Part shown: positions 618 through 19,771 of the stretch, in pieces
Layout of the letters: the number at the start of each line of letters is the position of its first letter
Numbering within the stretch: the stretch's first letter is position 1
NCBI GenBank assembly: GCA_025963265.1
Contig: JAOPUY010000163.1
Coordinates: forward strand, 1 to 19,771
Reading direction: 5' to 3'
DNA: 19,771 nucleotides
Origin: Frankiales bacterium
GTDB lineage: Bacteria > Actinomycetota > Actinomycetes > Mycobacteriales > Jatrophihabitantaceae
Notes under the pieces: model-generated
The model's database searches: none
What the model was told of the DNA's origin: nothing
What the model saw: only the letters and a program-made list of their open reading frames with translations
Program-made: the position numbers and the translations under genes

Positions 618-947
618 ATGACCGAAACACCCGTTCTCGACACGCTAGGCGCGATGACCGCCGCGTCGATCGATCAGTTCAGCGCTGCTCCGGACGCGCT
701 GATCTTGATTCGCTTGGCCGCGCTCGTCGCCGTTGACGCTCCGACGCTGTCCTATCTGTCCCAGGTGGGAATCGCGGCCGATCTCGGGATCTCGATCGAA
801 GATGTCCAGAACGTGTTGGTCGCCGTAGCGCCCATCGTCGGCACGGCCCGTGTCGTCTCGGCGGCGCGCAAGATCAGCGAGGCCTTCGGCATCGCGGTCG
901 CGGTGGTGGCCGAGGAGCTTCAGGAATTCGACGCGGCCGAGGACTGA
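618..947 (+). CDS. Carboxymuconolactone-decarboxylase-like small alpha-helical protein
   Basis: This encodes a complete 109-aa protein. The ATG at 618 is preceded by an AAGGAG-type ribosome binding site about 8 bases upstream. The core (IRLAALVAVDAP, then a helix ending IEDVQNVLVAVAPIVGTARVVSAA) matches the actinobacterial carboxymuconolactone decarboxylase-like family, which shares the AhpD all-helical fold. There is no cysteine anywhere in the protein, so the CxxC redox pair of AhpD is absent and peroxidase activity of that type is not expected. Real decarboxylase activity is also doubtful; members of this subgroup are mostly uncharacterised. The last 28 bases overlap the 3' end of the convergent SulP gene, so the two transcripts would be complementary at their ends. 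Family assignment is good; function is unknown. Confidence 0.75.
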   Translation: MTETPVLDTLGAMTAASIDQFSAAPDALILIRLAALVAVDAPTLSYLSQVGIAADLGISIEDVQNVLVAVAPIVGTARVVSAARKISEAFGIAVAVVAEELQEFDAAED

Positions 948-2605
948 CCGCCCGTCCGCTCGAAGGCCCGCACCGCGTCCGGCACGCTGCTCCAGACGCG
1001 GTGCTGGCCGCGCCACCGATCCGCCTCAGCCGATCGGCGGGCCATGTCGAGCGCCCGTTGGGGAAGCGACGCGATCCACAGCGTCGTGCCGAGATCGGCG
1101 AGTTCGGCTTCCAGTTCCCGCTCTGCGGCCAGGATCGTCGTCGAGAGCATCCCCACCGAGGTGACGTCGAGCACGACCACGGCGATCGGCCGCGCTGCTG
1201 CTCGGACGGCGGCGAGAACTCGTTCCGCGACCGCGTGCACGTTCGCCGTGTAGAGCGGGACGCCGACCCGCAAGATGAGCAGGCCCGCCGCCGGCACCGC
1301 GTCAGCCGCACCGCCAGTGCCATCCGCCCCAGCAGTGCCAGCAGTGATCTGCTGCCGCTCGACCGCGACCTCGATCACCGGAGCGCTGTTCAGCTCGTGC
1401 AGCACGAGCCCGAGCGTGAGCACGACGCCGGCTCCGACGGCCACCAGTAGACCCGAGACCAACCCAAGCGCCGCGGTCACCGACGCCACCACGAACTCCG
1501 GCCGGCTGAACCGCTCGAGTTCGTGCAGCGCCGGCAGCGAGATCAAGCTCAGCGTCGCGACCACCACTAGCGAGCCGAGAGTCGCCTGGGGCAGATCGCT
1601 CAGCACCGGTCCGAGAAACAGCGCGGTCAGCACCGCGAGGACCAGGGTGCTCAGCTGGCTCAGTTGGCTCCGCGCGCCCGAGGCGATATTGGTGGCCGTC
1701 TGGCTGAAGCCGCCGGCTGGCGGCAGCGACTGGAAAAAGGACGTCGCGGTGGCGGCCACGCCGACCGTCAGCAGTTCTCGGTCGCTCTCGATCCAGGGTT
1801 CGCCCCTGCGCCGCACGCCCTTGGCCACCGACACCGTCTCCAGAAACGCCATCAAGGCGATGGCCACCGCGCCCGGGAGCAAGCCGCCCACCCGGTCGAA
1901 GGCCGGCCAGGTCGGCCGCGGCAAGCCTTGTGGGATATGGCTAATCAGCGCGATGCCATGCTGGTCGACGTGGGCCCAGGCGACGAGGACGATCCCGCCG
2001 GCGACGACGACCAGCGGCCCGGGCACCGACGGCCACAGCCGCCGAAACAGCAGCAGCACCGCGATGCTGACCGCCGACAAGGCGAGAGTCGTCGCGCTCG
2101 CCTGGTCAAGGTGGACGAGGGCATAGTGCAGCTGGGAGAAGAAGTGCCCGCTACCGCTGCCCGGCAGGCCGAGGACCTTGGGCAACTGGCCGACCGCCAC
2201 GGTCAGGCCGACCCCCGTCTTCAGGCCTAACAGCACCGCGTCGGACACGTTGCGAATGAGGTTGGCCAGCCGCAGCAATCTCGCGGCGAGCAGGATCACG
2301 CCGACCAGGAACGTCAGCGTCTCCAGGTCCGGAATCGAGCCGCCGGCCACGCCGGCGGCCAGGAGGGTCGAGGCCGACAAGGTGGCGATGGTCGACGTTG
2401 TAGAGACGCTCAAGGTGCGCGAGCCGCCGAGCAGGAAATAGATCAGCATGGGCACTAGGCAGGTGTAGATGCCGACCTGCACCGGCATCCCGGCCACGGT
2501 GGCATAGGCCATCGCCTGGGGAATCACCACGGCGCCCGCGGCCAGGCCGGCGACGAGGTCGGCCCGCAGCCAAGCGCGCCGCATTCCGCGATCCCCGCCT
2601 AGCAC
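920..2605 (-). CDS. SulP-family inorganic anion transporter with C-terminal STAS domain (copy 1)
   Basis: This is a 561-aa protein with the SulP architecture: about 10-12 hydrophobic segments over residues 15-415, then a cytoplasmic STAS domain over roughly 430-545. The family signature near the N-terminus is clear (VVIPQAMAYATVAGMPVQVG), as is the conserved region around residues 295-320 with FSQTATNIASGARSQLS. The STAS domain contains a VLDVTSVGMLS stretch, matching the loop that carries the regulatory Ser/Thr in anti-sigma antagonists. SulP proteins move sulfate, bicarbonate or other anions; the substrate cannot be read from the sequence. The chosen start is GTG at 2605, with GGAG 6 bases upstream; an in-frame ATG at 2584 is the alternative. 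It is the last gene of a minus-strand run (FGE, two DUF202 genes, SulP), 202 bases after the DUF202 pair. Confidence 0.88.
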   Translation of the reverse strand: MLGGDRGMRRAWLRADLVAGLAAGAVVIPQAMAYATVAGMPVQVGIYTCLVPMLIYFLLGGSRTLSVSTTSTIATLSASTLLAAGVAGGSIPDLETLTFLVGVILLAARLLRLANLIRNVSDAVLLGLKTGVGLTVAVGQLPKVLGLPGSGSGHFFSQLHYALVHLDQASATTLALSAVSIAVLLLFRRLWPSVPGPLVVVAGGIVLVAWAHVDQHGIALISHIPQGLPRPTWPAFDRVGGLLPGAVAIALMAFLETVSVAKGVRRRGEPWIESDRELLTVGVAATATSFFQSLPPAGGFSQTATNIASGARSQLSQLSTLVLAVLTALFLGPVLSDLPQATLGSLVVVATLSLISLPALHELERFSRPEFVVASVTAALGLVSGLLVAVGAGVVLTLGLVLHELNSAPVIEVAVERQQITAGTAGADGTGGAADAVPAAGLLILRVGVPLYTANVHAVAERVLAAVRAAARPIAVVVLDVTSVGMLSTTILAAERELEAELADLGTTLWIASLPQRALDMARRSAEADRWRGQHRVWSSVPDAVRAFERTGGQSSAASNS

Positions 2606-3512: not shown

Positions 3513-4493
3513 TCAGTTGGCCGCGCAGCGAAACCCGATGTGCGAGGTGCTGCTGCGCACCGTCTGGCCCTGTCGGGCCGGCGGGCGGTATCGAAGGCAG
3601 TAGGAGGGCGAGCAGAGATGCGAGCCGCCCTTGATCACTCGCCGGTCATCCTCAGCCAGCGGCTCGGACCGGCTTACGCCACAGCACGAGTGGCTCGCTG
3701 GCTCCCCCGTCGGCTGGAGCTCCCCCATCGGCTCGATCGGCCCGGTCGGCTCAGGCGACGGGTGGTGATCGGGGGTCCAGGTTGAGTCCGTCCACTCCCA
3801 GACGTTGCCGATCATGTCCACCAGGCCCCAGTCGTTGGCGCGATAGCGACCGACCGCTGTGGTGCTGGCCCGTCCGGTGGGATTCAAGTTCTCCCACGGG
3901 AACTGGCCGTGCCAGGTGTTGGCCATCATGCGGCCGCGCGGCGTGCGCTCCTCGCCCCAGGCAAACGTCGTGGGCGGCCGGCCGGCGCGCGCGGCGTATT
4001 CCCATTCGGTCTCCGTCGGCAGCCGCTTTCCGACCCACTCGGCGTAGGCCAGGGCGTCCTCGTAGGCCACGTGGACCACTGGGTGCTGATCTCGCCCGGC
4101 CAGCGAGCTGCCCGGGCCCTGGGGCGTGCGCCAGCTTGCCCCCGGCGCGAAAATCCACCACCGGCGCCAGTCATCGAGTGCAATCGGTCCGGAGGCCTGC
4201 TGGAAGACGAGCGAGCCCGGGACGAGGTCGGCCGGATCGGCGTCCTCCAGGCCGGGACCGGTGGGACGTCGCTCAGCGACGGTGAGGTAGCCGGTTTGCC
4301 TGACGAATCGGCCGAATTCCAGGTTGGTGACGGGGTGCGCGTCAAGGAGAAAGCCCGCGACCTCCGCCACATGCGCGGGTTTCTCCTCCGGGTAGAAGTC
4401 CTCGCTTCCCATCAGGAAGCGTCCGCCCGTGATTCGGACCATGTCCTTGGCAAAGGTCATGATCTTCCCGCTGACATTCCGCGTCGCCGTCAT
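3513..4493 (-). CDS. Formylglycine-generating enzyme (sulfatase-modifying factor family), likely active
   Basis: This is a copper-dependent oxidase of the SUMF1/FGE family, which converts the Cys of a CxPxR motif in sulfatases to formylglycine. From the ATG at 4493 the protein is 326 aa, close to bacterial FGE length. It opens with the family pattern MVRITGGRFLMGSEDFYPEEKP, then HPVTNLEFGRFV, VVHVAYEDALAYAEWVGKRLPTETEWEYAARAG, and NVWEWT. Both catalytic cysteines are present near the C-terminus as C294 and C299 in KGGSHLCSPSYCLRYRPPAR, matching human C336/C341, and the ending GFRCAAN is typical. The frame stays open to a GTG at 4613, but that would overlap the divergent gene at 4598. In-frame ATGs at 4460 and 4442 are shorter alternatives. 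The sulfatase at 18784 carries the CSPTR target, so this enzyme probably serves it. It is first in the minus-strand run with two DUF202 genes and SulP. Confidence 0.93.
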   Translation of the reverse strand: MTATRNVSGKIMTFAKDMVRITGGRFLMGSEDFYPEEKPAHVAEVAGFLLDAHPVTNLEFGRFVRQTGYLTVAERRPTGPGLEDADPADLVPGSLVFQQASGPIALDDWRRWWIFAPGASWRTPQGPGSSLAGRDQHPVVHVAYEDALAYAEWVGKRLPTETEWEYAARAGRPPTTFAWGEERTPRGRMMANTWHGQFPWENLNPTGRASTTAVGRYRANDWGLVDMIGNVWEWTDSTWTPDHHPSPEPTGPIEPMGELQPTGEPASHSCCGVSRSEPLAEDDRRVIKGGSHLCSPSYCLRYRPPARQGQTVRSSTSHIGFRCAAN

Positions 4494-4548
4494 GAGGCCA
4501 TGTTTGGCGACGGGGCCGCAAGCGACCTCATCCGGCTTGGGTGAGGTG

Positions 4549-4574
4549 CCAGTCTTACCCGCTGCCGAGACTGG
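4549..4574. promoter_or_regulatory. Inverted repeat CCAGTCT-N12-AGACTGG between divergent genes
   Basis: This has perfect 7-bp arms separated by 12 bases, in the 104-base region between the FGE gene (minus) and the 68-aa membrane protein gene (plus). The geometry fits a dimeric regulator site, and the position would let one protein control both transcripts. It also lies upstream of the ribosome binding site of the plus gene and could form an RNA hairpin. I see no convincing -35/-10 pair around it. Confidence 0.35.
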
Positions 4575-4597
4575 GACAAAGCAGCGGAGGTGTCGAC

Positions 4598-4804
4598 ATG
4601 TCAACGATCTCACGGGAGCACACAGTCCCCCGCAGTAGCTCGAGCACAGTCCGAACGAGCGGCGGCCGAAAGCAGACCACGCGCGTCGCCGCCGCGAAAT
4701 CGCGCCGCAGGGCCTGGCGGGTCGACACCCTGGTGATCCTCGGATCGCTCACGTTCACAGTCTGCTTATTCGTTCTTGGCGCCTTGCTACTACATGTCGG
4801 CTGA
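4598..4804 (+). CDS. Small single-helix membrane protein, 68 aa, unrecognised
   Basis: This small gene starts at the ATG at 4598, decided by a GGAGG ribosome binding site 7 bases upstream; a longer in-frame reading from 4541 lacks such a site. The first 42 residues are polar and very basic (many Ser, Arg and Lys, ending SRRRAWRVD). The last 26 residues form one hydrophobic helix (LVILGSLTFTVCLFVLGALLLHVG), so the predicted topology is a cytoplasmic basic tail with a C-terminal anchor. The last 11 bases overlap the presumed start of the kinase-like gene (ATG at 4794), suggesting coupled translation and a shared job at the membrane. I do not recognise a family. The strong ribosome binding site and the helix make it a likely real gene. 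Confidence 0.6.
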   Translation: MSTISREHTVPRSSSSTVRTSGGRKQTTRVAAAKSRRRAWRVDTLVILGSLTFTVCLFVLGALLLHVG

Positions 4805-6041: not shown

Positions 6042-8654
6042 TCAGAGCGCTAGCTGGAGCAAACCGAGCTCGTAACCTCGGGCGACGGCGTCCCGTCGGC
6101 GCGAGACGCCGAGCTTGCGGTACAGGGCAGCCGAGTGGGTCTTGACCGTGTTGACCGAGATCCCGAGCGTGGCCGCCACCTCGGCGAGGCTCATCGGTCC
6201 GGCCAGCTGAGTCAGGATTCCCCGTTCGCGCGCGGTGAGCGCCTCGCGCGGCCGGGCGACCGCGCGGCGCGTTGGCTCGGCGACTCTTGAGGCTATCGGC
6301 CAGATCGCGGCCAGCGCCGGCTGCGCGACCAACAGGCCGGCCAACTGCGCCGCTCGGCGGTAGAAGGGCAGTCGAACACCGTCCGGGGCCAGCTCCACGG
6401 CCCGACGGGCGGCATCGGTCGCCACTGCGGCCCGGCCCTCGAAATGAGCTACCGCGGCGGTGAGCAGCAACGCGTCGACCATGGTGGGCAGTTGGGCCGG
6501 TGGGTCGATGGCGGCCAAGGTCTCGCTGATCAGCGCGGACGCTTGGGCCACGTCACCCCGCGCGAACTGGACATCAGCCGCTCGCAGGGTCAGCTCCGGG
6601 TTGCCCCGGGCCAGCCGACGCGCCGCTAGTCTGCTACCCGGGCCGGTCTGGCCGGAAGCTATCGCGAGCTCCTCGAACGCCTCGTCGCACAGGTTGCGGA
6701 TCGCCAGCAGCGGCTGGGCGGCGTCGGAATCCGGCAACAAGCTCAGCCCCTGGGCCGGCTGGCCCTGCGACATCAGCAGCTTGGCCTCAATGCACCGGGC
6801 GGCGGCCGCGAGCGGCTCGTCGGTCGGCGACCACGACGTCGCTCGGACCCGTTCAATCGCCCGTCGGCAGCGATCCCACTCCCCGCGCTGCAAGGCCAGG
6901 GCAGCGCTCCCCAGCTGCACCGCCATCACACCCCGGCCGTTGAGGGCGGGGAAGCGCCGGATGCTCGTGCTCGCGACCGCCTCGAACGTCGCGGCCAGTC
7001 GAAGCTGGCCGGCCTGGGCGTGGGCAAAGGTCAGCAACCCCAGGCAGCGCAGCTCGTGGACGACCGCTCCGGCCTCCCGGCAGGCTTGCCAGGCCAGCGT
7101 CAGCGACGCGGTCGGCGCCGGGAACGGCTGCGTCCACAACTGCAGGGCGGCGAGGTTCGCGTAGCTGGCTGCCGCCACCACACTCGGTGGACCCGGGCCC
7201 GCGTTCGCGTCCTCGACGGCCAGCAGCTCCCGCACCCGAGCCTCGCCGGCGTCGAGGTAGAGGAGCTCGGTCTCGACGTATCGCGCCACCAGCGCGACCT
7301 CCGTTGGGAGGTGGCCACTGCTCAACACCGAGGCCAGGTCCTCGCGGGCCAGCTCGACCTCGCCGTTCATGATTCGGGCCACGCCTCGGGCCGCCCGCAG
7401 CGCGATCCGTTGCGAACTGGTCAGGCCGGCCGGGAGCACCGCTCGAGCCAGGCCGGTCAACAGCTGGCCGAGGCCGATCCCGCCGGACGCCAGGGACTGC
7501 GCGAAGCCGCCGCCGATCAGCAGCTGGGCCAGGGCCAGCCAGTCCTCTGCGAGCGCGTGCTGCTCCATCGCCGACACGAGTAAGCCCTGGGTCTCGAACC
7601 AGCTCGCCGCCCGTTGGCGCAGCGCAGCCGCGTTCGCCGGGTCGCGGGTCTCCCGCCGTCGACTCAGATTCTCCTGCAGCATCGGGTGAAACCGGAACCA
7701 CTGCTGTTCGCGGTCCAGCGGGGTGATGAAGAAGTTGGAGCTGGCCAAACCCTCGAGCACCAGCCGCGAGTCGGCCCGCCCGCTGAGGGCGTCGGCCAGG
7801 CCCTCGGAGACCTCGCGCAAGATGCTCACGTCGACGAGCATCCGCAGTTGCTCGGGCGGAAGGCCGTCCAGGACGGAGTCCATCAGCTCGGGCGCGCGCA
7901 GCGACCGCAGTCGCCGTCGCAGCTCGCCGCGCTCGGCGGGGACCGCGCTGGCGAAGTTCAGGGCGGCCAGCTGCACGGCGGCCGGCCAGCCCAGCGTGCG
8001 ATCCAGGAGTTCCTCGACGTCCTCGGTGTCGAAGGTGATGCCGTGCGCGCGGAGCACCTCGGCCGTCTCCTCGACGTTCATGGCCAGCTCGGCCGCGCGA
8101 ATCTCGGCCACCCGATCTTCCAACCGGTAGCGATGCAGCGGCAGCAGGGGATCCGACCGAGCCGCCAACACGATCCGCAGGCCGGGGATGGGGTACTGGA
8201 CGATCGAGTCCAGCGCTTGGCGGACCTTCGAGTCGGTCAGCAGCTGGGCGTCGTCGACGATGAGCAGCAGGTGCCCCCAAGCCTCGAGCACGTCGACTAA
8301 CAACCCCAGCGCATGCTCGGCGATGGGCGCGACGCCGGCTCGGACGGCGGTCGAGCGCCCGGCTGCGGCCGGCGCCGATCCGAGGAGCTCTTGCGCGTCG
8401 ACGGCGGCGATGACCGCTCCCCAGAAATCGGCCTCGTTGTTCCGGGTCTCGTCGACCGTGACCCAGGTCATCGGGGCCGCCCGCGGCGCCGGCCAGTTGG
8501 TCAGGACCGTGGTCTTGCCCCAGCCCGGTCCGGCGCTGAGCAGAGTGAGCGGCTTGCCCGCGGCGGCGTCCAGCAACGCGTGCAGGCGGGGCCGCGGCGA
8601 CTCAGAAGTCCCCGTCCTCGACCGGGAGCCCACCGCACCCGTTTGCATGTCCAT
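6042..8654 (-). CDS. MalT/LAL-type LuxR-family transcriptional regulator (copy 1, intact P-loop)
   Basis: This 870-aa protein has the size and order of large ATP-binding LuxR (LAL) regulators of the STAND class. Walker A is GPGWGKTT at 42-49 and Walker B is LLLIVDDA at 129-136; the ARSDPLLPLHRYRL stretch follows near 165-178, then winged-helix and helical repeat (TPR-like) regions to about 790. The C-terminal LuxR helix-turn-helix is at about 806-870 (LTARERGILTQLAGPMSLAEVAATLGISVNTVKTHSAALYRKLGVSRRRDAV). In MalT, ATP and a small inducer drive oligomerisation on DNA; the inducer here is unknown. The start is ATG 8654, preceded by AGGTAGGGG; ATG 8648 is an alternative. It sits 125 bases downstream of the second LAL gene and upstream of the small gene at 5945, all on the minus strand. 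The 8655-8779 gap is comparatively AT-rich and may hold its own promoter. Confidence 0.92.
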   Translation of the reverse strand: MDMQTGAVGSRSRTGTSESPRPRLHALLDAAAGKPLTLLSAGPGWGKTTVLTNWPAPRAAPMTWVTVDETRNNEADFWGAVIAAVDAQELLGSAPAAAGRSTAVRAGVAPIAEHALGLLVDVLEAWGHLLLIVDDAQLLTDSKVRQALDSIVQYPIPGLRIVLAARSDPLLPLHRYRLEDRVAEIRAAELAMNVEETAEVLRAHGITFDTEDVEELLDRTLGWPAAVQLAALNFASAVPAERGELRRRLRSLRAPELMDSVLDGLPPEQLRMLVDVSILREVSEGLADALSGRADSRLVLEGLASSNFFITPLDREQQWFRFHPMLQENLSRRRETRDPANAAALRQRAASWFETQGLLVSAMEQHALAEDWLALAQLLIGGGFAQSLASGGIGLGQLLTGLARAVLPAGLTSSQRIALRAARGVARIMNGEVELAREDLASVLSSGHLPTEVALVARYVETELLYLDAGEARVRELLAVEDANAGPGPPSVVAAASYANLAALQLWTQPFPAPTASLTLAWQACREAGAVVHELRCLGLLTFAHAQAGQLRLAATFEAVASTSIRRFPALNGRGVMAVQLGSAALALQRGEWDRCRRAIERVRATSWSPTDEPLAAAARCIEAKLLMSQGQPAQGLSLLPDSDAAQPLLAIRNLCDEAFEELAIASGQTGPGSRLAARRLARGNPELTLRAADVQFARGDVAQASALISETLAAIDPPAQLPTMVDALLLTAAVAHFEGRAAVATDAARRAVELAPDGVRLPFYRRAAQLAGLLVAQPALAAIWPIASRVAEPTRRAVARPREALTARERGILTQLAGPMSLAEVAATLGISVNTVKTHSAALYRKLGVSRRRDAVARGYELGLLQLAL

Positions 8655-8779: not shown

Positions 8780-11305
8780 TCACAGCAAGCCGTGTTGTCG
8801 GGCCGTCGCGACGGCTTCGGACCGATTGGCGGCGCCGAGCTTTTGGTAGAGCGCCGTGAGGTGGGATTTGACGGTGTTCGGCGACAAAAGCAGCTCGCGC
8901 GCGATCTCGGCGTTCGTCATCCGCGCGCCGAGTCGATGCAAGATGGCGATCTCCCGGCCGGACAAGCTGGCCAACAACTCGGGGCCCACGACCAGCGCGG
9001 CCGGCCCGAGCGGCCTGCGCTCGACTCGCGGATCGGCCGGCCACGCGCGTAAGAGTCGAGGACTGCCCTCCAACAGCCCGGCCAGCATGCCTCGGGCGCG
9101 GACGAAGGGCTGTCTGATGTCATCACCGGCCAACTCCAAGGCCTGGCGCACTTGCCACTCCGCAGAATCGTCCGCGCCTTGGAGTTGCCGGGACCGGGCC
9201 GACAGCAGCAGGGCGCTCACCAGAATGGGGTCGTCGCTCGCGCTGTCATCAGCCAGCGTGAAGCGCAGCAGCCGATCCGCGGGCGCGGTCCGCTCCTGCG
9301 ACAAGTAGGCGCGGGCCGCCGCTATCGCCAACCAGGGCTGAGACTGGTCGGCCGACCTGGCCCCCAGCAGGTTGAGGGCGGACTGCGGTCGCCCCAGCTC
9401 AGTCTCGATCTCGGCCAGCAGGTGCAGCCGAGCGGCGAGCAGCAACGGGGGCAACCGCGGGACCGCCCGTTCCAGGGCCAACAACTCGGTCCGGGCTGAG
9501 GCGGCGTCACCCGACTCGAAGGACAACCACGACCGCAGCATGATGAGCGCCCAGCCGATGGCCGGATCCCCCCGGTCGCTCTTGGACTGCCGCCATCGGG
9601 TCTCGGCCAAATCCAGGCAGCTCCGCCAGCGAGGCAGATCCAGCCGGACGAAGGCCCGGACGACCTCGGCCAGATGGTAGGTCGCCGACAGAGTCAGTTC
9701 CGGGTCGGCTCGGACCAGTGCCCGCGATCGCCTGCGGGCACTGGCGTCGCCGCCCTGGGGGCGCACGGCGTTCACCAGCTCCAGCAGGGCCAAACATCGC
9801 AACTCAGCTCGGGGCACCGAGCCGACCAGGCGAGCGGATCGGGCCGCTTCGGACAACAACTCGCTCGGGAATCGCCAGTCCCCGGACGACCAGAAATGGA
9901 CCCGGGCCTGGATCTCCAGCACGGCAGAGCGCAACGCGAGGGCCGAGTGCGGCCCGGCCCGTGGACTCGGCGTCACGGCCAGGCGTCGCACCGCCCGGTC
10001 GACCTCCACGACGGAGTACTGCTCGCCGGCCCGGACGACTGCGATCAGCGCGGTCGCGTGCTGCGCGGCCAGGTCTTCGCCGCCGAGCGCTGGGTCGGGA
10101 TCGGCGACCGTCGCGAGCACCTCATCGTCGATCGTGTTCAGCGTGCCCAGCTCGATCAGCGTCGCCGCCAGCGAACCGCCCAGCAGCGCCGCCCGGAGCT
10201 GGCGCCGGTTGTGGCCCAACCTCGCGTATTCAAGCGCCCGCAACGGGTCCTCGGCCGCCAGGCACCATTCCGAGGCCCGCTGATACAGCCTCGTCGCTGA
10301 GAACTCGCCGTCGTGTTGCAGAAAATGGAGCAGGATCTCGCGCAGCAGCGGGTGATAGCGAAATCTCAGCTGGGCGTCGTTCACCGGGGTGACGAAGCTG
10401 TTGGCCCGCGCCAGCCCGCGCAGCAGCTCGACCGCCCCCGGCACCTCGGCCACGGCTTCGGCGATCGGCCCGGCCACCTCGTCGAGGAAACTGGTCGCGA
10501 TCAACAGCCGACGCTCGGCCGGCGACAGCCGCGCCAGCACCTCGGCCACCAGGTACTCGCCGACGCTGCCTCGATCTAGGGCGAATTGCTGAATGAAATC
10601 CGCGGGATCGGCCAGTCCGGCCGCGCCCATCGCCGAGAGCCGGACGCCGGCGACCCACCCCTCGGTCCGCCGTTGCAGCGTCGCCAGCTGACCGTCGGTG
10701 AGGGCGACCGAATGGCTGGCCAGCACCCGCCGGGACTCCTGCGGGGTCATCGCCAACTCGGTCGCGCGGATCTCGCCCAGCAGTCCGGCCGAGCGATAGC
10801 TGTGCAAGGCAAGCACCGGGTCCAGGCGGGCCGAGACGATCAACCGCAGCCGATCTCCGCCGGCGCGCACCACCGCGTCGAGTTCGGCCAGCAGCGACGG
10901 ATCGATCAGGTGCTGGGCGTCGTCGAGGATGAGAACAGTGCGCTGCGCGGGCAACACACGGCGCAGGCCGGCGAGGAACGCCGCGGGACCGCGGTCGTGG
11001 GGCAGCGCGGCGTAGGCGTTGCGGTCGACCAGGTGGCCGGCGCTTTCTAGCGCCGCGCCGACCCGGTCCCAGAAGGTCTGCGGGGCGTCCTCGCCGGGTG
11101 ACAGCGAGATCCAGGCCGGCCGTCGCGGGAGGGTGCTCGCCCAGTCGGCGAGCAGCGTGGTCTTGCCGGAGCCGGCGCCAGCGCAGACCAGGGTCAGGGG
11201 CAGCCAGTCGAAGGAGTCCAGCTGGACGCTCAATCGGCGGCGGTGGGTGAAGCGGGCGGGGAGGGTAGGCGGGCGGAGCCTGCTGCGGGCCGTCACTCCG
11301 TCCAT
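8780..11305 (-). CDS. MalT/LAL-type LuxR-family transcriptional regulator (copy 2, intact P-loop)
   Basis: This 841-aa protein has the same architecture as its neighbour. Walker A is GAGSGKTT at 43-50, Walker B is VLILDDA at 124-130, and SARLDPVLALHSYR is near 157-172. A long helical region follows, then the LuxR helix-turn-helix at about 780-841 (LSGREIAILHRLGARMTNAEIARELLLSPNTVKSHLTALYQKLGAANRSEAV). The start ATG at 11305 has AAGG 8 bases upstream, and the following MDGVTARSRLRPPTLPARFTHRRRL is a typical LAL opening. It is transcribed away from the central repeat-rich hub and toward copy 1. It is only moderately similar to copy 1 and looks closer to copy 3 in the segment reading RTEGWVAGVRLSAMGAAG and in RGSVGEYLVAEVLA (copy 3 has the same block), suggesting these two are nearer relatives. 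The target genes and ligand are unknown. Confidence 0.92.
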   Translation of the reverse strand: MDGVTARSRLRPPTLPARFTHRRRLSVQLDSFDWLPLTLVCAGAGSGKTTLLADWASTLPRRPAWISLSPGEDAPQTFWDRVGAALESAGHLVDRNAYAALPHDRGPAAFLAGLRRVLPAQRTVLILDDAQHLIDPSLLAELDAVVRAGGDRLRLIVSARLDPVLALHSYRSAGLLGEIRATELAMTPQESRRVLASHSVALTDGQLATLQRRTEGWVAGVRLSAMGAAGLADPADFIQQFALDRGSVGEYLVAEVLARLSPAERRLLIATSFLDEVAGPIAEAVAEVPGAVELLRGLARANSFVTPVNDAQLRFRYHPLLREILLHFLQHDGEFSATRLYQRASEWCLAAEDPLRALEYARLGHNRRQLRAALLGGSLAATLIELGTLNTIDDEVLATVADPDPALGGEDLAAQHATALIAVVRAGEQYSVVEVDRAVRRLAVTPSPRAGPHSALALRSAVLEIQARVHFWSSGDWRFPSELLSEAARSARLVGSVPRAELRCLALLELVNAVRPQGGDASARRRSRALVRADPELTLSATYHLAEVVRAFVRLDLPRWRSCLDLAETRWRQSKSDRGDPAIGWALIMLRSWLSFESGDAASARTELLALERAVPRLPPLLLAARLHLLAEIETELGRPQSALNLLGARSADQSQPWLAIAAARAYLSQERTAPADRLLRFTLADDSASDDPILVSALLLSARSRQLQGADDSAEWQVRQALELAGDDIRQPFVRARGMLAGLLEGSPRLLRAWPADPRVERRPLGPAALVVGPELLASLSGREIAILHRLGARMTNAEIARELLLSPNTVKSHLTALYQKLGAANRSEAVATARQHGLL

Positions 11306-11430: not shown

Positions 11431-11462
11431 GATATCCGACTGCGGGCCGGGTCTTGCGGTGC

Positions 11463-11479: not shown

Positions 11480-11561
11480 CTCGGTTCGCGCTCCGGGACG
11501 AGCTTCGCGGCCCGGGGCTGGACCGGCGCGTGACCTAGTCTTTTGTTACCACCTTGTTACT

Positions 11562-11641
11562 AGCGGCCGTTGTCTCTAGCGGCCAGTCTTACTAGCGGCC
11601 ACTCTGATCAGCGGCCACTCTCACCAGCGGCCACTGACTGA
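11562..11641. repeat. Five tandem 16-bp repeats headed by AGCGGCC
   Basis: AGCGGCC occurs at 11562, 11578, 11594, 11610 and 11626, an exact 16-base period. The 9 bases after each core are more variable, with ACTCT or AGTCT common in the later copies. The array ends 2 bases before the ATG at 11644. Sixteen bases is about one and a half helical turns, so successive cores would face alternate sides of the DNA. A run of directly repeated asymmetric cores fits a site bound by several monomers. Confidence 0.9.
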
Positions 11642-11643
11642 CA

Positions 11644-11892: not shown

Positions 11893-11986
11893 CAACACGC
11901 GAATAGCACCGCTGGGGCAATAGCAGCGCCGGGGCAATAGCACCGCTGGGGCAATAGCAGCGCCGGTGAAATAGCACCGCTGGCCT
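11888..11986. repeat. 17-bp tandem repeats headed by AATAGCA, overlapping a stop codon
   Basis: Five units start at 11902, 11919, 11936, 11953 and 11970, an exact 17-base period, after a shorter diverged copy at 11888. Units alternate between AATAGCACCGCTGGGGC and AATAGCAGCGCCGGGGC, so there is also a 34-base period. The TAG stop of the 11644 gene is the TAG of the first copy. CGCTG of one unit is complementary to CAGCG of the next, so transcripts could form weak hairpins. It lies between two convergent genes. Confidence 0.9.
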
Positions 11987-12007
11987 AAGACGGACTCAGC
12001 GGCGTGA

Positions 12008-12436
12008 TCACCCCGCCGAGGCGGCGTCGGCGGCCAAGATCAACTCCGCCGACGGGCCGGTCAAACGCTCGTGGACGAGCACCGAGCCGTTGGCTGCCGC
12101 CACGCTCGTCGCGAACCGGGCCGCCCACAGATCCCGCCAAACGATAGCGACGGCACTCTCGTCGGGACTCATCGCCTCCGCGATCAGCTCGACATCGCGC
12201 TCGCTGATGAGTCCGTCGTACTCACCCTCGAGCTCATAAAACAACTCGCGCACATCGTCGTCGAGATCGTCGATCTCCACTGAGTAGACCTCGCCCGCGC
12301 TGTTGCGGCCGATGACGAGAATGTCGAGCACCCTAATGGCCTCGCTCTCGCTGAGCTCGATCAAGGCAAGCACTAGATCCGGGGGCAGCGGGCGGTCGTC
12401 AAATTCCAGCAACAGGAATTCGACGGGGCCTTGCAT
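12008..12436 (-). CDS. DUF6325-like small acidic protein
   Basis: This is a 142-aa acidic soluble protein. The start is set at ATG 12436, since GGAGG lies 6 bases upstream; a longer in-frame reading to GTG 12517 would translate the 12-bp repeats and lacks a ribosome binding site. The opening MQGPVEFLLLEFDDRPLPPDLVLALIEL, the segment AIRVLDILVIGRNSAGEVYSVEIDDLDD and the segment AVAIVWRDLWAARFATSVAAANGSVLVHERL follow the DUF6325 family (GPVEFL, R(I/V)LD, the E-x-x-D-L segment, and W-x-AARF). Members are common in actinobacteria and of unknown function. The gene converges on the 11644 gene and diverges from LAL copy 3. Recognition of the family is from memory of its pattern. Confidence 0.75.
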   Translation of the reverse strand: MQGPVEFLLLEFDDRPLPPDLVLALIELSESEAIRVLDILVIGRNSAGEVYSVEIDDLDDDVRELFYELEGEYDGLISERDVELIAEAMSPDESAVAIVWRDLWAARFATSVAAANGSVLVHERLTGPSAELILAADAASAG

Positions 12437-12453
12437 CCGAGCCCTCCTTTGCC

Positions 12454-12501
12454 ACTTGATTTGGCACTTGATGTGCGACTTGATGTGCGACTTGACTTGA
12501 T
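12454..12501. repeat. Four tandem 12-bp repeats headed by ACTTGA upstream of the DUF6325-like gene
   Basis: ACTTGA starts at 12454, 12466, 12478 and 12490, an exact 12-base period, with an extra copy at 12495. The two middle units are identical (ACTTGATGTGCG). Read on the minus strand the array begins 18 bases upstream of the ATG at 12436 and adjoins its ribosome binding site, so it lies in the leader or promoter. If translated in the frame of the gene it would read as SHIK repeats. Confidence 0.9.
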
Positions 12502-12629
12502 TTTGTTTACTGATCACTGCATTGACCAGTTGTTGAACGACGGTGATTTGCCAGTTGATTAACCGTGATGAGGGCGACGATAAGACGGCCGGCGGGCGGC
12601 AGAATCACCCACGAGGCATGACGCTCGCC

Positions 12630-12651
12630 CCCGCGCCGGCGCCGGCGCGGG
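12630..12651. promoter_or_regulatory. 22-bp perfect G/C palindrome
   Basis: The left arm CCCGCGCCGGC (12630-12640) is followed directly by its reverse complement (12641-12651). It is entirely G and C, so in a high-GC genome part of the symmetry could be chance, but 11 consecutive matching pairs is long. It lies about 225 bases upstream of LAL copy 3. It could be a cruciform-prone site or an operator; there is no following T run, so it is unlikely to be a terminator. Confidence 0.45.
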
Positions 12652-12779
12652 ACGCCGACCGCAGCCGATCGATTTACCCGGTCGGGGTGATCACCCTGCG
12701 TGTGGAAAGTGTCACGATAAGCCTATGTAGCCATCTCTGACCTTTGGACGTTTCCGCAAGCTGCTGGGGGGCATTGCCC

Positions 12780-12878
12780 GTGAACGAGTCACTCTTCGTC
12801 AACGTCCGAAGCGGGCCGCCCGGCCGCCGGACCCACCAACGCCGCCGGGGCCACCAAGTCCGCCGGGGCCACCGATGA
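12780..12878 (+). CDS. Possible 32-aa leader peptide overlapping the LAL copy 3 start
   Basis: This is a GTG-started frame with GGGGGG 8 bases upstream. It encodes MNESLFVNVRSGPPGRR followed by a run of 15 residues dominated by Arg, His and Gln. Its TGA stop overlaps the ATG of LAL copy 3 in an ATGA arrangement. The overlap and spacing are what translational coupling or a regulatory leader would look like, and the LAL gene itself has no good ribosome binding site. No homology is recognised, and a short ORF in high-GC DNA can be chance. Confidence 0.3.
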   Translation: MNESLFVNVRSGPPGRRTHQRRRGHQVRRGHR

Positions 12879-15499
12879 ACGCGGACGGCAAGGTCAGGGC
12901 ACCCGATTCGCCCCCGCAGTTCGTCTCGCGACCACGATTGAGCACCGAGCTGACCCGGGGCGCGCGCCAGCCCGTGACCCTGATCGCCGCCGGACCGTGG
13001 TCGGCCCAAACGGTGATGCTCACCGACTCGGCGCAGCCTCGGTCGACGCCGAACGCCTGGCTGTCCCTGGACGCGCCAGACAACTATCCGGCTCGGTTTT
13101 GGTCCTTGGTCGGCGAAGCCCTCTTCGCCGCCGGGATCACCGAGGACGCCGAGTCTTTCAGCTCGCTGCCCCACGATCCCGACGGCGCGGTGCAGTTCTT
13201 CGAGGCGTTCCGCGGCTGCCTAGACGGACCGGCTGAGCGACATCTGATCATCGACGACGCGCATTTCCTCAGCGATCCGACGCTGCTGGCTGAGCTGGAC
13301 GTGATCATCCGCTACGGCTCCAGCTATCTAAAGCTTGTCCTGAGCGCTCGCACCGACCCGCTGCTTCCGTTGCATCGCTACCGGCTGGCCGGGCAGATGC
13401 ACGAGATCCGCGCCGAGGCGCTGGCGATGACCAAACCCGAAGCCCGGGCCTTGCTGACCATTCACGGGGTGAACCTCTCCGGGTCCGATTTGGCGCTGCT
13501 GACTCGGCGCACCGAGGGCTGGGCGGCCGGCCTGCGCCTGTCGGCGATGAGCATGGCCGGATCCCGGCATCCCGAGCAGTTCATCACGCAACTGGCGATG
13601 GACCAGGGAAGCGTCGGGGAGTACCTGATGGAGGAGGTCCTCGCCCAGCAGGATCCGTCGGTGCGCCAGTTACTAGTGCAGACGAGCTTCCTGCGGGAGG
13701 TCTCGGCATCGCTGGCCGCCGCGGTCACGGGCATCGACGCCAGCGGGGAGCTCCTGGCCGAGCTGTCGCGCACCAATTCCTTTGTGGTCGCGCTTGATCG
13801 CGGCGGCGGCCGGTACCGATACCACCAGCTGTTCGGCGAGATCCTCTCCTATCTGCTGATCCGGGATTTCCCAACGATGCAGGACGAGCTACGTCGCCGC
13901 GCGTCGGACTGGTTCGAGAAGCAGGGCGACACGGCGTCGGCGATGCGCTACGCGATCGCCGCCCACGACTATGCGCACGCCGCCTCCGTGCTCGTCAACG
14001 GTGGGCTGGCCACCGCCTATGTCGAACGAGAAGACCTCCCGACGTTCGAGCCGGCCGAGGCCTCGCCGCTCGAGCCGACCGGGACCGACCGGTGGGGGTC
14101 GGCCGGCCGGCCGACGGTCGAGGGCACCATCGCGCAGGCCGGAATCGCCGTGATGCACGGCGATGTCGAACTGGCGCAAGACCACCTGCGGCACGCCGAC
14201 TTCGCCGAGATGAATCCGAAGGCTCGCACGGCCGCCGTGCTGGTCTCGGCCATCGCCGCGCAACGAAGCGGGCAGTTGGCCGAGTTGGATTCCGCCGCCG
14301 AATCACTCATCGAGCTCTCGGAGACTCCGGCCGCGTTCGAGCAGCCCGCGGGCCTGCGCGCGGCGCTGCGCTTGAGTCAGGCCAGCACCCGCTTTTGGAA
14401 CGGAAGCGCCGCCCAAGAAGTGGAGAGTTACCTCTTGGACGCCCGGCGTGAGGCCGGGCGCGAGTCGGCGGACGCCGTCGAGCTCGAGTGCCTGGATCTG
14501 TTGGCCTTGTCGAGCGTCCTGTCCGGTCGGCTGGAACACGCGAAGGACTACGACCGCCAGTGCCACGACCTCGTGCGAAGCTCGCCCCGACTGCATTTGC
14601 TGCCGCTGCATCATCTCGTTCATGCCAACGCCCTGATGCTGCGCGGTGATTTCAGCGGCGCCACCCGTTGCGCGCAGCGCGCGGAGCAGACCGCGGGCAA
14701 CGATCTCGACGACTCGGTGCGAGCCGCGGCCGCGCTGACCCGGGTCTGGCTGGCCATCAACACCGGTCAACTGGCCGACGCGCACCTTCGGCTGCGCACC
14801 GCCCCCGAGCTAGCCGCTCGCCTGCCGAAATCGCTGCTGCGTTCGAAGCTGCTGGCCATGGCCGAACTCGAGACCGCGCTCGGCCGCCCGCACGCCGCCG
14901 TCAATTTATTGCGCGGACGGTCCAATCGCAGCCGCGACCCGCTACTCGGACCAGCGTTGGCCCGAGCCCATCTCCGGCTGGGTGAGATCGAGGACGCTAC
15001 GACCGCGATCCGGCCGATTCTCATCGCCGCGGACACCACGCCGCCGCTGCCCCAGCTGCTGCTGGCCTTGCTTGTCTCCGCCCAGATCGCCGAGGCGAGG
15101 GGCGATGAGGCGCGGGCGGTCGAGGAGGTGCTGCGCGCCACCGAGTTAGCGGCCGACGGCCTCAACCAGCCATTTGTCTCCGAACGGCGGTCCCTGGCCG
15201 GGCTGCTGTCCCGCCACCCCGAAACGCGCTCGGCCTGGCCCAGCGCGGGCGGAGTGGTCGTCGATGAGGCGCGGGCCGAAGGCGGGGCCAGGCCGCGCCG
15301 GCTGGCCGAGCCGCTCACCGACCGCGAAGTGTCGGTCCTGCGTCGGTTGGCCACCACCATGACGACCGCCGAGATCGCCGAGGAGCTCTGCGTCTCGATC
15401 AACACAGTCAAGACCCACATAGCCGCGATCTATCGCAAGCTGCCGGCCGCCGGCCGACGCGACGCCGTCTGGCGGGCCCGGCAACTCGAACTGCTCTGA
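12875..15499 (+). CDS. MalT/LAL-type LuxR-family regulator (copy 3) with degenerate Walker A
   Basis: This 874-aa protein has the same layout as copies 1 and 2. In the P-loop position the sequence reads AAGPWSAQTVMLT (about 38-50), where copy 1 has SAGPGWGKTTVLT: the lysine and the loop glycines are gone. Walker B (HLIIDDA, 123-129), the SARTDPLLPLHRYRL stretch, the helical repeats and the LuxR helix-turn-helix (about 809-874; LTDREVSVLRRLATTMTTAEIAEELCVSINTVKTHIAAIYRKL) are intact, and the frame is unbroken over 2.6 kb. It is therefore not an ordinary pseudogene but a regulator that probably cannot bind ATP in the usual way. The ATG at 12875 is the only start I find in this frame; it lacks a clear ribosome binding site and overlaps the possible leader stop. 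It is transcribed toward the small membrane gene and SulP copy 2. Confidence 0.9.
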   Translation: MNADGKVRAPDSPPQFVSRPRLSTELTRGARQPVTLIAAGPWSAQTVMLTDSAQPRSTPNAWLSLDAPDNYPARFWSLVGEALFAAGITEDAESFSSLPHDPDGAVQFFEAFRGCLDGPAERHLIIDDAHFLSDPTLLAELDVIIRYGSSYLKLVLSARTDPLLPLHRYRLAGQMHEIRAEALAMTKPEARALLTIHGVNLSGSDLALLTRRTEGWAAGLRLSAMSMAGSRHPEQFITQLAMDQGSVGEYLMEEVLAQQDPSVRQLLVQTSFLREVSASLAAAVTGIDASGELLAELSRTNSFVVALDRGGGRYRYHQLFGEILSYLLIRDFPTMQDELRRRASDWFEKQGDTASAMRYAIAAHDYAHAASVLVNGGLATAYVEREDLPTFEPAEASPLEPTGTDRWGSAGRPTVEGTIAQAGIAVMHGDVELAQDHLRHADFAEMNPKARTAAVLVSAIAAQRSGQLAELDSAAESLIELSETPAAFEQPAGLRAALRLSQASTRFWNGSAAQEVESYLLDARREAGRESADAVELECLDLLALSSVLSGRLEHAKDYDRQCHDLVRSSPRLHLLPLHHLVHANALMLRGDFSGATRCAQRAEQTAGNDLDDSVRAAAALTRVWLAINTGQLADAHLRLRTAPELAARLPKSLLRSKLLAMAELETALGRPHAAVNLLRGRSNRSRDPLLGPALARAHLRLGEIEDATTAIRPILIAADTTPPLPQLLLALLVSAQIAEARGDEARAVEEVLRATELAADGLNQPFVSERRSLAGLLSRHPETRSAWPSAGGVVVDEARAEGGARPRRLAEPLTDREVSVLRRLATTMTTAEIAEELCVSINTVKTHIAAIYRKLPAAGRRDAVWRARQLELL

Positions 15500-15605
15500 C
15501 CCGGGTCGCACCGGACGGGGCGACCACCCGCCGAGGATGACACCGGCCAACGGCGGACGGGTAAAGCTGGGCGCTAGTCGGATACTCGGGAAAGGCGCCC
15601 CGCTC

Positions 15606-15713
15606 ATGCAGACGCACAGGGATGAGTCAGCTCCGCCCATGTCCAACCGGGTCGGGTGGATTGTCTTCGGTGCGGTTGCCGCGGTCGGACTCGCCGCCCT
15701 CAACGCGGTGTGA
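15606..15713 (+). CDS. 35-aa single-helix membrane peptide coupled to SulP copy 2
   Basis: The ATG at 15606 opens a 35-codon frame: a polar head (MQTHRDESAPPMSNR) and one hydrophobic helix (VGWIVFGAVAAVGLAALNAV) ending at the C-terminus. Its TGA (15711-15713) shares a base with the ATG of SulP copy 2 (TGATG), the classic arrangement for reinitiation. GGGAAAGG lies about 10 bases upstream of its start, a loose ribosome binding site. It begins 107 bases after the LAL copy 3 stop. A small membrane protein stoichiometrically tied to a transporter could be a regulatory or stabilising subunit; that is inference. No family is recognised. Confidence 0.5.
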   Translation: MQTHRDESAPPMSNRVGWIVFGAVAAVGLAALNAV

Positions 15714-17416
15714 TGCGCGGTCAGCGATACCTACGACGCCAGTTGCGGGCGGCGAGGTCGGCGCTGCCCAAACGCGAGAATCTCAAGGCCGACCTGCTGG
15801 CTGGCCTGCCGGGGGCGATCAGCAGCGTCCCGGACGGGATGGCGACGTCGGTGTTAGCCGGCGTGAGCCCGGTGCACGGGCTGTACGCGAGCATCGGCGG
15901 CCCGATTGGCGGCGGCCTGTCGCAGAGCACCCGGCTGATGGTGGTGACGACGACCAGCGCCGCGGCGCTGGCCGCCGGATCGGCCGTGTCCGACATCGCC
16001 CCCGGCCAGCGGGAGGACGCGCTGTTTCTGCTGACCATTCTGACGGGCATCGTCATGATCGCGGCGGGCCTTCTCCGACTGGGCCGCTACACCCGATTCG
16101 TCCCGCACTCGGTGATGATCGGTTTTCTCACCGGGATATCGGTGAACATCCTCCTAGGCCAATTGCCCGACCTGCTCGGCTACCACGCCCACGGCTCCAC
16201 CAATCTCGCGAAGGCGATCGACACTGTCTCGCATCTGAGCGTCGAGGTGCTTCCCTCGGCCGCCACCGGCGCCGCCGCGATCGCGATCACAATCGTGCTG
16301 GCCCGCACCCGGGTGCGCTCGGTGGCCGCGTTGTTCGCGCTGGTGCTGCCCACGGCGGCGGTCATCATCCTGGCCGCCGGCAGTGTGGCGCGGGTGCGAG
16401 ATTCCGGAGCCATTCCGTCGGGGGTTCCGATCCCCCATCTGCCGCGCCTGAGCGCGCTCACCTTCAGCGTCGTCACCGGAGCCTTCTCGGTCGCCGCGAT
16501 CGTGCTCGTGCAGGGCGCCGGAGTGGCCCAGTCAGCCCCGAATCCCTCGGGCCATCGGTCCAGCCCGAATCAGGACTTCATCGGCCAAGGGGTGGGCAAC
16601 ATCGTCAGCGGAGTGATCCAGGGTCAGCCGGTCGGCGGCTCAGTCGGCCGAACGGCGTTCAATGTGGCGACCGGAGCCAAGAGCCGCTGGGCTTCGATCT
16701 TCTCCGGCGGATGGATGCTCATCATCCTGTTGCTCTTCTCCGAGGCGGTCGGACTAGTCGCGATGCCCACGCTGGCCGGCGTGCTGATGGTCGCGGCGGT
16801 CGGATCGCTCAGAGTGGACAGCGTTGCCACCATCTGGCGGACCAGCCGCATCTCCCAAGTCGGCCTGATCACCACGTTCCTAGCCACGCTGTTGCTGCCG
16901 GTGGCGGCCGCGGTCGGGATCGGGGTCGCGGTGGGGCTGCTGCTGCAGCTGAACCAAGAGGCCCTCGACCTCCGGGTCGTCTCCCTCGTCCCCACCGACG
17001 ACGAGCACTTCGCCGAACATCCCGCGCCCCGCAAGCTGCCCAGCCACGCCGTGACCGTCTTGGACGTCTACGGAAGCTTGTACTACGCCGGGGCTCGCAC
17101 GCTGCAGAGCCGGCTGCCCGATCCGGCCGGTTCCGCGGCGGCCGCGGTCGTCCTACGCCTGCGGGGCCGGACGATGGTCGGGGCCACGTTCATCGTGGTG
17201 ATCGACGACTACCTCGCCCGGCTGGCGGCCAACGAGGGCCGGCTCTTCCTCAGCGGCGTCGATCCGGACTTGGCCGACCAGCTCGGACGATTCGATCGTT
17301 TCGACTCCGCCGGCCTGGAAATCCTCACGGCGCGCCCGGTCCTCGGCGGTTCGACCCGGGAGGCCTATGAGCGCGCCGCCCGCTGGGTGTCCGGCCGGAC
17401 GCAAGCCGGACGCTAG
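15713..17416 (+). CDS. SulP-family inorganic anion transporter with C-terminal STAS domain (copy 2)
   Basis: This 567-aa protein begins at ATG 15713 (TGATG overlap with the small peptide gene); a longer reading from TTG 15656 has no support. The N-terminus LKADLLAGLPGAISSVPDGMATSVLAGVSPVHGLYASIGGP is the SulP signature region. About a dozen hydrophobic helices follow to about residue 420, with the conserved GQPVGGSVGRTAFNVATGAKSRWASIFSGGW segment near 303-335. The C-terminal STAS domain (about 440-555) has FDSAGLEIL at the switch position. It is clearly diverged from SulP copy 1, so the two are not a recent duplication and may differ in substrate. Sulfate is a reasonable guess given the sulfatase and FGE genes, but bicarbonate or others are equally possible. 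The gene converges on the DUF7144-like gene, 5 bases apart. Confidence 0.9.
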   Translation: MRGQRYLRRQLRAARSALPKRENLKADLLAGLPGAISSVPDGMATSVLAGVSPVHGLYASIGGPIGGGLSQSTRLMVVTTTSAAALAAGSAVSDIAPGQREDALFLLTILTGIVMIAAGLLRLGRYTRFVPHSVMIGFLTGISVNILLGQLPDLLGYHAHGSTNLAKAIDTVSHLSVEVLPSAATGAAAIAITIVLARTRVRSVAALFALVLPTAAVIILAAGSVARVRDSGAIPSGVPIPHLPRLSALTFSVVTGAFSVAAIVLVQGAGVAQSAPNPSGHRSSPNQDFIGQGVGNIVSGVIQGQPVGGSVGRTAFNVATGAKSRWASIFSGGWMLIILLLFSEAVGLVAMPTLAGVLMVAAVGSLRVDSVATIWRTSRISQVGLITTFLATLLLPVAAAVGIGVAVGLLLQLNQEALDLRVVSLVPTDDEHFAEHPAPRKLPSHAVTVLDVYGSLYYAGARTLQSRLPDPAGSAAAAVVLRLRGRTMVGATFIVVIDDYLARLAANEGRLFLSGVDPDLADQLGRFDRFDSAGLEILTARPVLGGSTREAYERAARWVSGRTQAGR

Positions 17417-18601: not shown

Positions 18602-18783
18602 GGGCGCTCCCGCAAGGTGGCTGAGCTGCCAGCTTCGCCGCTGGTCGCTCGTTGCGACTCACCCGTCCGGGATGGCTCTGAGCCCGAGCGCTTGGAAATC
18701 CGCGCGCTCACGCCGCCGGGATGATCCCTCGAGCGCCGGGGCCGGTCAGGCTGATCCGACCAAGCCGAGCTGGAGGTAGCACC

Positions 18784-19771
18784 GTGGCGAGAGCATTCCA
18801 GGGAACGATCAAACTCGACGTCCGTGACTCCGTTCCGGATTGGGACGCCTTCACCGCCGAGCGGGCCCCGGCGGACGCGCCCAACGTGCTGGTGGTGCTC
18901 TATGACGACACCGGGATGGCCGCCTGGTCGCCCTACGGGGGACGGATCCAGATGCCGACCATGCAGCGCCTGGCCGACAACGGCCTGACCTACTCGCAGT
19001 GGCACACCACCGCCCTGTGCTCGCCGACCCGCTCGACCTTCTTGACCGGACGCAACCACCATTCAAACGGCTTCGCGTCCATCTCCGAGTCCTCGACCGG
19101 CTTTCCCGGTTACAGCTCGCACATCCCGCCCGAGAACGGCACCATGGCCCACGTCCTGCGCGACAACGGCTACAGCACCTTCTGGGTCGGCAAGAACCAC
19201 AACGTGCCGGTCGACGCCTGGACCCAGGGCGCCTCGAAGAAGGAGTGGCCGCTGGCGATGGGGTATGACCGCTTCTACGGCTTCATCGGCGGCGAGACGA
19301 ACAACTGGTACCCCGACCTCGCCGAGGACAACCACTACATCGACCAGCCGTACCGGCCCGAGGACGGCTACCACCTGTCCAAGGACCTGGCCGACCAGGC
19401 GTTGAAAATGATTCGCGACACCCGACAGTCCGAGCCCGGCAAGCCCTGGTACCTGTGGTTCTGCCCCGGGGCCAATCACGCCCCGCATCACGCGCCGCAG
19501 GACTATATCGACAAGTACCGGGGCCAGTTCGACGACGGCTACGAGGCCTACCGCGAATGGGTGCTGCCGCGCATGATCGAGCGCGGCGTGCTGCCGGCCG
19601 GGACCGAGTTGACGCCGATCAACCCGATGGCCGAAGGCACCTTCAGCCCGAACGACCTGGTGCGACCGTGGGAAACGCTCTCGGCGGATGAGAAGAAGTT
19701 GTTCTCCCGAATGGCCGAGGTCTTCGCCGGCTTCTCCGAGTACACCGACGCCCAAGTCGGGCGCATCATCG
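18784..19771 (+). CDS. Type I (formylglycine-dependent) sulfatase, C-terminal part outside window
   Basis: This is a hydrolase of sulfate esters of the alkaline-phosphatase superfamily. GTG 18784 has GGAGG 7 bases upstream; 329 residues are visible and the frame is open at the window edge. Metal-binding D41/D42 lie in NVLVVLYDDTG. The maturation motif is C79-S-P-T-R83 in LCSPTRSTFLTGR, the exact substrate pattern of FGE. The following K/H pair is in WVGKNHNVP, and GANHAPHHAP is the next histidine cluster. Large insertions (for example ESSTGFPGYSSHIPPENG) resemble the ~780-aa actinobacterial arylsulfatases of the mycobacterial AtsA type. There is no signal peptide, so a cytoplasmic location is expected, in reach of the cytoplasmic FGE encoded at 3513-4493. 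The substrate is unknown. Confidence 0.94.
   Translation, partial: MARAFQGTIKLDVRDSVPDWDAFTAERAPADAPNVLVVLYDDTGMAAWSPYGGRIQMPTMQRLADNGLTYSQWHTTALCSPTRSTFLTGRNHHSNGFASISESSTGFPGYSSHIPPENGTMAHVLRDNGYSTFWVGKNHNVPVDAWTQGASKKEWPLAMGYDRFYGFIGGETNNWYPDLAEDNHYIDQPYRPEDGYHLSKDLADQALKMIRDTRQSEPGKPWYLWFCPGANHAPHHAPQDYIDKYRGQFDDGYEAYREWVLPRMIERGVLPAGTELTPINPMAEGTFSPNDLVRPWETLSADEKKLFSRMAEVFAGFSEYTDAQVGRII

Follow-up and report, generated by a model that had tools for sequence, protein, structure and literature searches.

The window (the whole 19,771-nucleotide stretch of DNA analyzed here) carries three LAL regulator genes, which we call copies 1, 2, and 3, set among genes for a sulfatase, a formylglycine-generating-enzyme-like protein, and SulP-type transporters. 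The minus strand encodes a second SulP-type transporter with a STAS domain (920..2605; Pfam and NCBIfam), the formylglycine-generating-enzyme-like protein (3513..4613; Pfam, FGE-sulfatase family, here FGE), which is a neighbor linked to LAL genes in some genomes, copy 1 (6042..8654), copy 2 (8780..11305), and a DUF6325 protein (12008..12517; Pfam) that lies between copies 2 and 3. Copies 1 and 2 were delimited and assigned on the basis of their open reading frames (ORFs), Pfam matches, the alignment, and the tree. On the plus strand, copy 3 (12875..15499) has a SulP-type anion transporter directly downstream (15656..17416; Pfam and NCBIfam), and a sulfatase gene with a CSPTRS motif runs off the window (18721..19770; ORF and Pfam). 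A DUF7144 protein is also encoded near the LAL genes, and beside the sulfatase lies the gene for a Phage_holin_4_2 (mycobacterial 4-TM holin-like) membrane protein (18012-18371, plus strand).

Copy 3 is an unbroken frame of 874 codons whose 874-aa product combines a NOD, a TPR solenoid, and a LuxR-type helix-turn-helix (HTH), the layout of a MalT-like or LAL-type STAND regulator (ORF, Pfam, the MalT structure 8bob, the model NF003420, and a structure model). Its NOD is MalT-like by sequence (match to 8bob_C over residues 14-377, E 7e-28), a TPR solenoid sensor is present between the NOD and the HTH, and the C-terminal LuxR/GerE HTH (residues 813-866; 15311..15472, plus strand) is intact and matches PF00196 with 53.9 bits against a cut-off of 23.5 (E 1.4e-14). 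PF25873 is precomputed for copy 3 in the protein-search listing and absent from a separate Pfam scan of the window. Against the NCBIfam MalT model NF003420, copy 3 reaches 222 bits, under the equivalog cut-off of 537, which makes it a relative of MalT and not MalT itself. The Walker B motif HLIIDDAH (13241..13264, plus strand; translation and alignment) is intact, with LIIDDAH fitting the LAL pattern hhhhDD, and the alignment shows that the invariant Arg159 of SARTDPLLPLHRY (13349..13351, plus strand) is retained. A sequence-only reading of this DNA had described Walker B, the following SARTDPLLPLHRYR stretch, the helical (TPR) repeats, and the HTH as intact in an unbroken frame, and all of this was borne out. 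The exception is Walker A, where a LAL protein carries GK[ST] and copy 3 reads GPWSAQTV. Judged by these features, copy 3 is a homologue of the LAL/MalT-like family that lacks the family's nucleotide-binding motif.

The broken Walker A occupies residues 40-47 (12992..13015, plus strand). It aligns without an indel to GPGWGKTT in copy 1, as the sequence-only reading had it, and to GAGSGKTT in copy 2; the indel-free alignment to both copies and to the relatives excludes a frame or start mistake at the motif. The same reading held that copy 3 had lost its Walker A lysine but kept everything else. The lysine is indeed gone, but so are two P-loop glycines (the motif departs from the orthologues at residues 42, 44, and 45) and a conserved tryptophan, W52, in the helix after the P-loop: codon 52 (13028..13030, plus strand) encodes Ser in copy 3 and Trp in all other orthologues that have a residue aligned at this position. 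Altogether, copy 3 departs from its orthologues at five of 108 invariant columns (G42W, G44A, K45Q, W52S, and V237I). Four of these five fall inside 11 residues, which random placement achieved in a fraction of 0.00025 of 200,000 placements, a P value of about 2.5e-4 that presumes independent changes, while one multi-base event or a local sequencing fault would cluster as well. By region, four of the seven invariant columns in residues 36-56 are changed, compared with 1 of 101 elsewhere. Among the 31 aligned sequences, only copy 3 packs more than two substitutions into so short a stretch; P0023 shows an apparent four, all of them after its residue 2, which we read as an alignment gap.

We judged constraint by invariant columns and a relative-rate count in place of dN/dS, because the nearest orthologues with DNA share only about 52% protein identity with copy 3 and silent sites would be saturated. 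Unique changes at well-conserved columns number 13 in copy 3 and 17 in the orthologue P0002 when the whole protein is counted, and 1 and 5, respectively, in the NTPase core minus residues 40-53; the end branch of copy 3 in the tree measures 0.42 versus 0.34 for P0002. The open frame and the normal constraint outside residues 42-52 rule out a general pseudogene. Copy 3 also retains T46, D127 and D128 of Walker B, and R159, by expectation residues of the pocket, and a recent loss or an error fits this better than an old loss. As far as sequence comparison goes, the lesion is thus focal, and the picture is neither one of gene-wide decay nor one of an NTPase pocket given up in the distant past. 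Several coding changes in 11 codons with almost none elsewhere are unusual for simple drift after inactivation.

The sequence-only reading had proposed to align orthologues of copy 3 and see whether the loss is conserved. A search of 5.8 billion proteins returned 7994 scored candidates, of which the best 120, copy 3 included, were considered. Among these 120, 30 proteins (P0002-P0031; 46-59% identical to copy 3) form an orthologue-like group, whose limit we placed at the drop in listed identity from 46 to 44%; the group includes Jatrophihabitans and many metagenomic sequences. In spite of their likeness to copy 3 in identity and tree placement, the orthologues covering the loop keep GKT without exception (28 of 28); P0009 and P0028 begin after the P-loop and stand outside this count. 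A conserved loss is therefore not what the alignment shows. By a loose pattern, GK[TS] anywhere within the first 200 residues, the motif is present in 227 of the 229 non-window matches listed for copies 3 and 2, the misses being again P0009 and P0028, and it occurs in 80 of 80 NOD stretches found by profile in the fetched loci, a count that was not de-duplicated. A search with residues 33-80 alone for a sharer of the odd motif gave three candidates and returned only copy 3 itself.

In the tree, copy 3 lies inside the orthologue group together with P0002 and P0015-P0017 (support 98), all of which have GKT; P0018, also with GKT, is listed with them as grouping with copy 3. This nesting among GKT orthologues places the loss on copy 3's own branch. 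The closest orthologue listed among the best 120 of 7994 is only 59% identical to copy 3, so that an older private loss, a very recent loss, and an error look the same from the relatives. Of the 23 other genomes examined in the family, just two contain an orthologue (G017 and G022; 51-52% identical), and no closer one was found among the 24 family genomes that include the source genome (G000), which gives no basis for dating the loss more precisely. In eight other genomes from the same genus, of which several are incomplete drafts, another LAL was the best match (E 8.6e-75, 32% identity), and a scan of genome contigs with copy 3 gave five matches, limited to the HTH region, in Bacteroidota or Lactococcus records. 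Among the titles and abstract openings listed from an open-access collection, we found no LAL or other bacterial STAND regulator with a degenerate or missing P-loop.

What such a lesion would do can be gauged from better-studied STAND proteins. MalT is established to alternate between a resting monomer that holds ADP and an oligomer that holds ATP and activates transcription (PMC10427625). Escherichia coli MalT (PDB 8bob and 1hz4) reads SPAGYGKT at the aligned place, whereas copy 3 has no P-loop lysine and also lacks the two glycines and the following tryptophan of its own orthologue group. Given the MalT cycle, a protein with a destroyed Walker A should not activate alone. The Streptomyces LAL activators of the MilR/PikD type resemble copy 3 in architecture and in corresponding Walker A and B motifs, matched by eye, but differ from it in that they possess an intact Walker A and depend on it (PMC5015266, for PikD as cited there). 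In the same study, the MilR substitutions G34A and G36A cut milbemycin output by 78% and 65%, respectively, and K37A and K37R reduce it by 98.5-99.5%; Western blots of five MilR mutants, K37A among them and G34A/G36A not, gave similar protein levels (PMC5015266). Equated by eye on the motif, MilR G34, G36, and K37 correspond to copy 3 residues 42, 44, and 45, the same three positions, with two of the copy 3 changes leading to other residues (Trp and Gln). Since single substitutions at these positions cripple MilR, the nucleotide pocket of copy 3 should not work.

Given the observed sequence state, the focal pattern of the lesion, its privacy among the relatives found, and the locus context, we see an even chance that copy 3 is a recently disabled MalT-like (LAL) activator whose Walker A loss is private to this genome. 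Copy 3 would have started as the genome's representative of an ordinary, conserved MalT-like (LAL) STAND regulator among sulfatase, FGE, and SulP genes, and Walker A would then have been destroyed along its terminal branch by four or more amino-acid substitutions within 11 codons. The resulting protein would no longer hold nucleotide properly and, following the MalT scheme, would not be capable of activating itself, while presumably still folded and still carrying its HTH. Copies 1 or 2, with their intact P-loops, may take over regulation of the locus. A recent inactivation of this kind would amount to ordinary regulator turnover in a multi-LAL locus. Most likely, a member of a known family has privately lost its function, or a local error mimics such a loss; a new class of ATP-independent regulator is the less likely account.

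Such an error, in which the gene really encodes an intact Walker A and a consensus fault in a fragmented draft or its assembly produced the changes, is the strongest competitor of recent inactivation, although clearly the less probable of the two. The genome is a draft of 632 contigs with 63% completeness. Copy 3 is known from a single record (one member sequence, one contig), and no second sequence of the species carrying the gene was found, so that the bases rest on this one record. In favor of an error, the damage sits in a stretch of about 33 bases, no other part of the gene shows anything like it, and the relatives have an intact loop. On the other hand, the changes are in-frame substitutions in mid-contig without an indel, and the rest of copy 3 departs at just 1 of 101 invariant columns. 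The FGE gene on the same contig departs, conservatively, at 1 of 70 invariant columns (29 relatives range from 0 to 3) and, under a 93% limit, at 4 of 110 (relatives 0-6); a generally bad contig is thus not seen in FGE, the one gene tested.

We also looked for a source of the altered stretch. No exact 12-mer of the lesion stretch recurs in the window, which gives no sign of a tract copied in from there, and three 11-mers recur, where 60 random segments give 0-7. Elsewhere in the genome, positions 12996-13035 weakly match G000:C559:8425-8466 (34 of 42 bases, a 2-base gap, E 7.6e-4), and the one control stretch of the same length found a weaker best match (E 0.034). The C559 match is antisense to an unrelated reading frame, which we take to be oxidoreductase-like; not every changed base is present in it, as a donor it would introduce two extra bases, and its overlap with the lesion is probably due to chance rather than to a donor. 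Positions 13004-13032 also contain an imperfect inverted repeat of 13 bases.

The sequence-only reading had suggested a nucleotide-independent regulator, or a partner or decoy for the neighboring copies. We consider it doubtful that copy 3 is a selected pseudo-STAND protein of this kind, which would either bind DNA constitutively and independently of nucleotide or co-assemble with copies 1 or 2. Outside the loop, copy 3 is as conserved as its relatives, with the normal constraint (1 of 101 other invariant columns changed) that a pseudo-STAND subfamily should have; a loss common to the orthologues, which should accompany it, occurs in 0 of 28. Copy 2 is 44-45% identical to copy 3 over the NOD, and a second locus (L181) likewise has two LALs around FGE and a sulfatase, but both of these LALs have GKT, and no other LAL examined with its loop covered shows the loss either. 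Some NLRs of plants and animals, natural or mutant (Pb1; ADR1-L2 and NLRC4 variants), are described as still acting although their P-loop is non-functional or degenerate (PMC3478704), and a pseudo-STAND reading of copy 3 is therefore not absurd. That such NLRs act is, however, shown or proposed from genetics (PMC3478704), whereas copy 3 is one unreplicated bacterial sequence, and MilR P-loop mutants are mostly inactive (PMC5015266).

The history of copies 1 and 2 also argues against a partnership. Their end branches (2.17, the longest, for copy 1 and 1.71 for copy 2) far exceed that of copy 3, and among 23 related genomes neither has a close relative, the best matches being 30-38% identical; by these comparisons they are old, fast-diverging paralogues. 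A fresh duplication of copies 1-3 is ruled out by the tree and the identities, with the long branches leaving the placement of copies 1 and 2 unsure. Neither copy stands beside the orthologues of copy 3 in the 18 kb fetched from G017 or the 19 kb fetched from G022. Old, diverged paralogues, together with orthologues that stand without them, give no sign of an inherited three-part assembly, and with GKT in every loop-covering orthologue, a state that the sequence-only reading itself had named as counting against its idea, the earlier proposal finds no support. Even less probable, in our view, is the fuller version in which copy 3 is a natural pseudo-ATPase whose NOD, sensor, and DNA-binding domains are under selection and which controls the sulfatase locus as a nucleotide-independent subunit or a brake of mixed assemblies with its neighbors. 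Bacteria would then have, in copy 3 and its P-loop-proficient neighbors, something comparable to those NLR systems in which one member has a dead P-loop. Provided that the lesion is genuine and that copy 3 functions in spite of it, MalT-type STAND regulators could act without their defining nucleotide switch.

Structure models of copy 3 and P0002 were both predicted from the same 49 sequences, chosen from 119 relatives of copy 3. The copy 3 model retains the strand-loop-helix of the P-loop (E34-38, H45-53) and has a pTM of 0.62 versus 0.76 for P0002. Predicted confidence is lower in copy 3 both in the blocks covering residues 41-60 (72 and 79 versus 86 and 91) and in residues 201-250 (69, 52, 52, 58, and 50 versus 91, 86, 86, 85, and 64), a drop that one pair of models, for sequences differing at 41% of positions, does not suffice to trace to the loop. 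That copy 3 still binds nucleotide weakly through its remaining pocket residues and acts as a sluggish activator seems very improbable to us: the retained T46, Walker B, and Arg159, the modeled P-loop fold, and the 22-35% of output left in the MilR glycine mutants would allow for it, but three P-loop positions are changed at once, and in MilR a change at any one of them lowers output by 65-99% (PMC5015266 for both figures), and predicted confidence at the loop is below that of P0002.

With regard to function, we asked how often LAL and FGE genes are neighbors. LAL matches were listed for 46 of 397 genomes (E 1e-60, two candidates scored per genome) and FGE matches for 82 of 298 (E 1e-40). Eleven genomes, G000 included, are in both lists, and a LAL match lies within 10 kb of FGE in five of them (G000, G022, G064, G118, and G191), hence in 4 of the 10 others, and apart from it in six (G056, G095, G104, G223, G243, and G275). 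Near the copy 3 orthologue of G022, SulP and FGE (63% identical) both lie no more than 10 kb away; neither was found in 18 kb around that of G017. In G118, a LAL stands head to head with a SulP gene 58% identical to the window's, followed by DUF7144, DUF6325, and FGE; in G064, two LALs surround a sulfatase, FGE, and DUF6325; and in G051 and G042, the LAL-FGE distance is 13-14 kb. Across five such LAL/FGE loci (G118, G191, G064, G051, and G042), every LAL whose loop was printed has GK[TS]. From this gene content, we infer that the LALs of FGE/SulP/sulfatase loci may control sulfate-ester or sulfate use. In several genomes, LALs are close to genes for FGE, a sulfatase, SulP, and DUF6325, and this proximity offers a testable function for a little-studied group. 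Which locus copy 3 itself regulates is not certain, because LAL and FGE are not close in 6 of 11 genomes and the G017 orthologue is without FGE and SulP.

The arrangement of a LAL with SulP, DUF6325, DUF7144, FGE, and/or sulfatase genes, which spans 920-19770 in the window, recurs in loci L040 and L179-L183, and the sulfatase of L182 is 70% identical to the window's. Two further ORFs lie next to copy 1. One, at 4776-5996 (plus strand), resembles a Ser/Thr kinase (PF00069, 29.9 bits, just under the cut-off); its catalytic loop reads HRGVTP, without the HRD aspartate, and DFS takes the place of DFG, so that from these motifs we assume it to be a pseudokinase. Its last ~100 codons overlap an ORF on the other strand, and its true end is unsure. 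That second ORF is unannotated and 81 aa long (MPRVTFEVRVLG...; 5700-5945, minus strand), lies immediately beyond the 3' end of copy 1, and has no Pfam match. Relatives of similar sequence adjoin LAL genes in L040 (7665-7874) and L179 (13078-13329), and the ORF is possibly a small conserved companion of LAL regulators.
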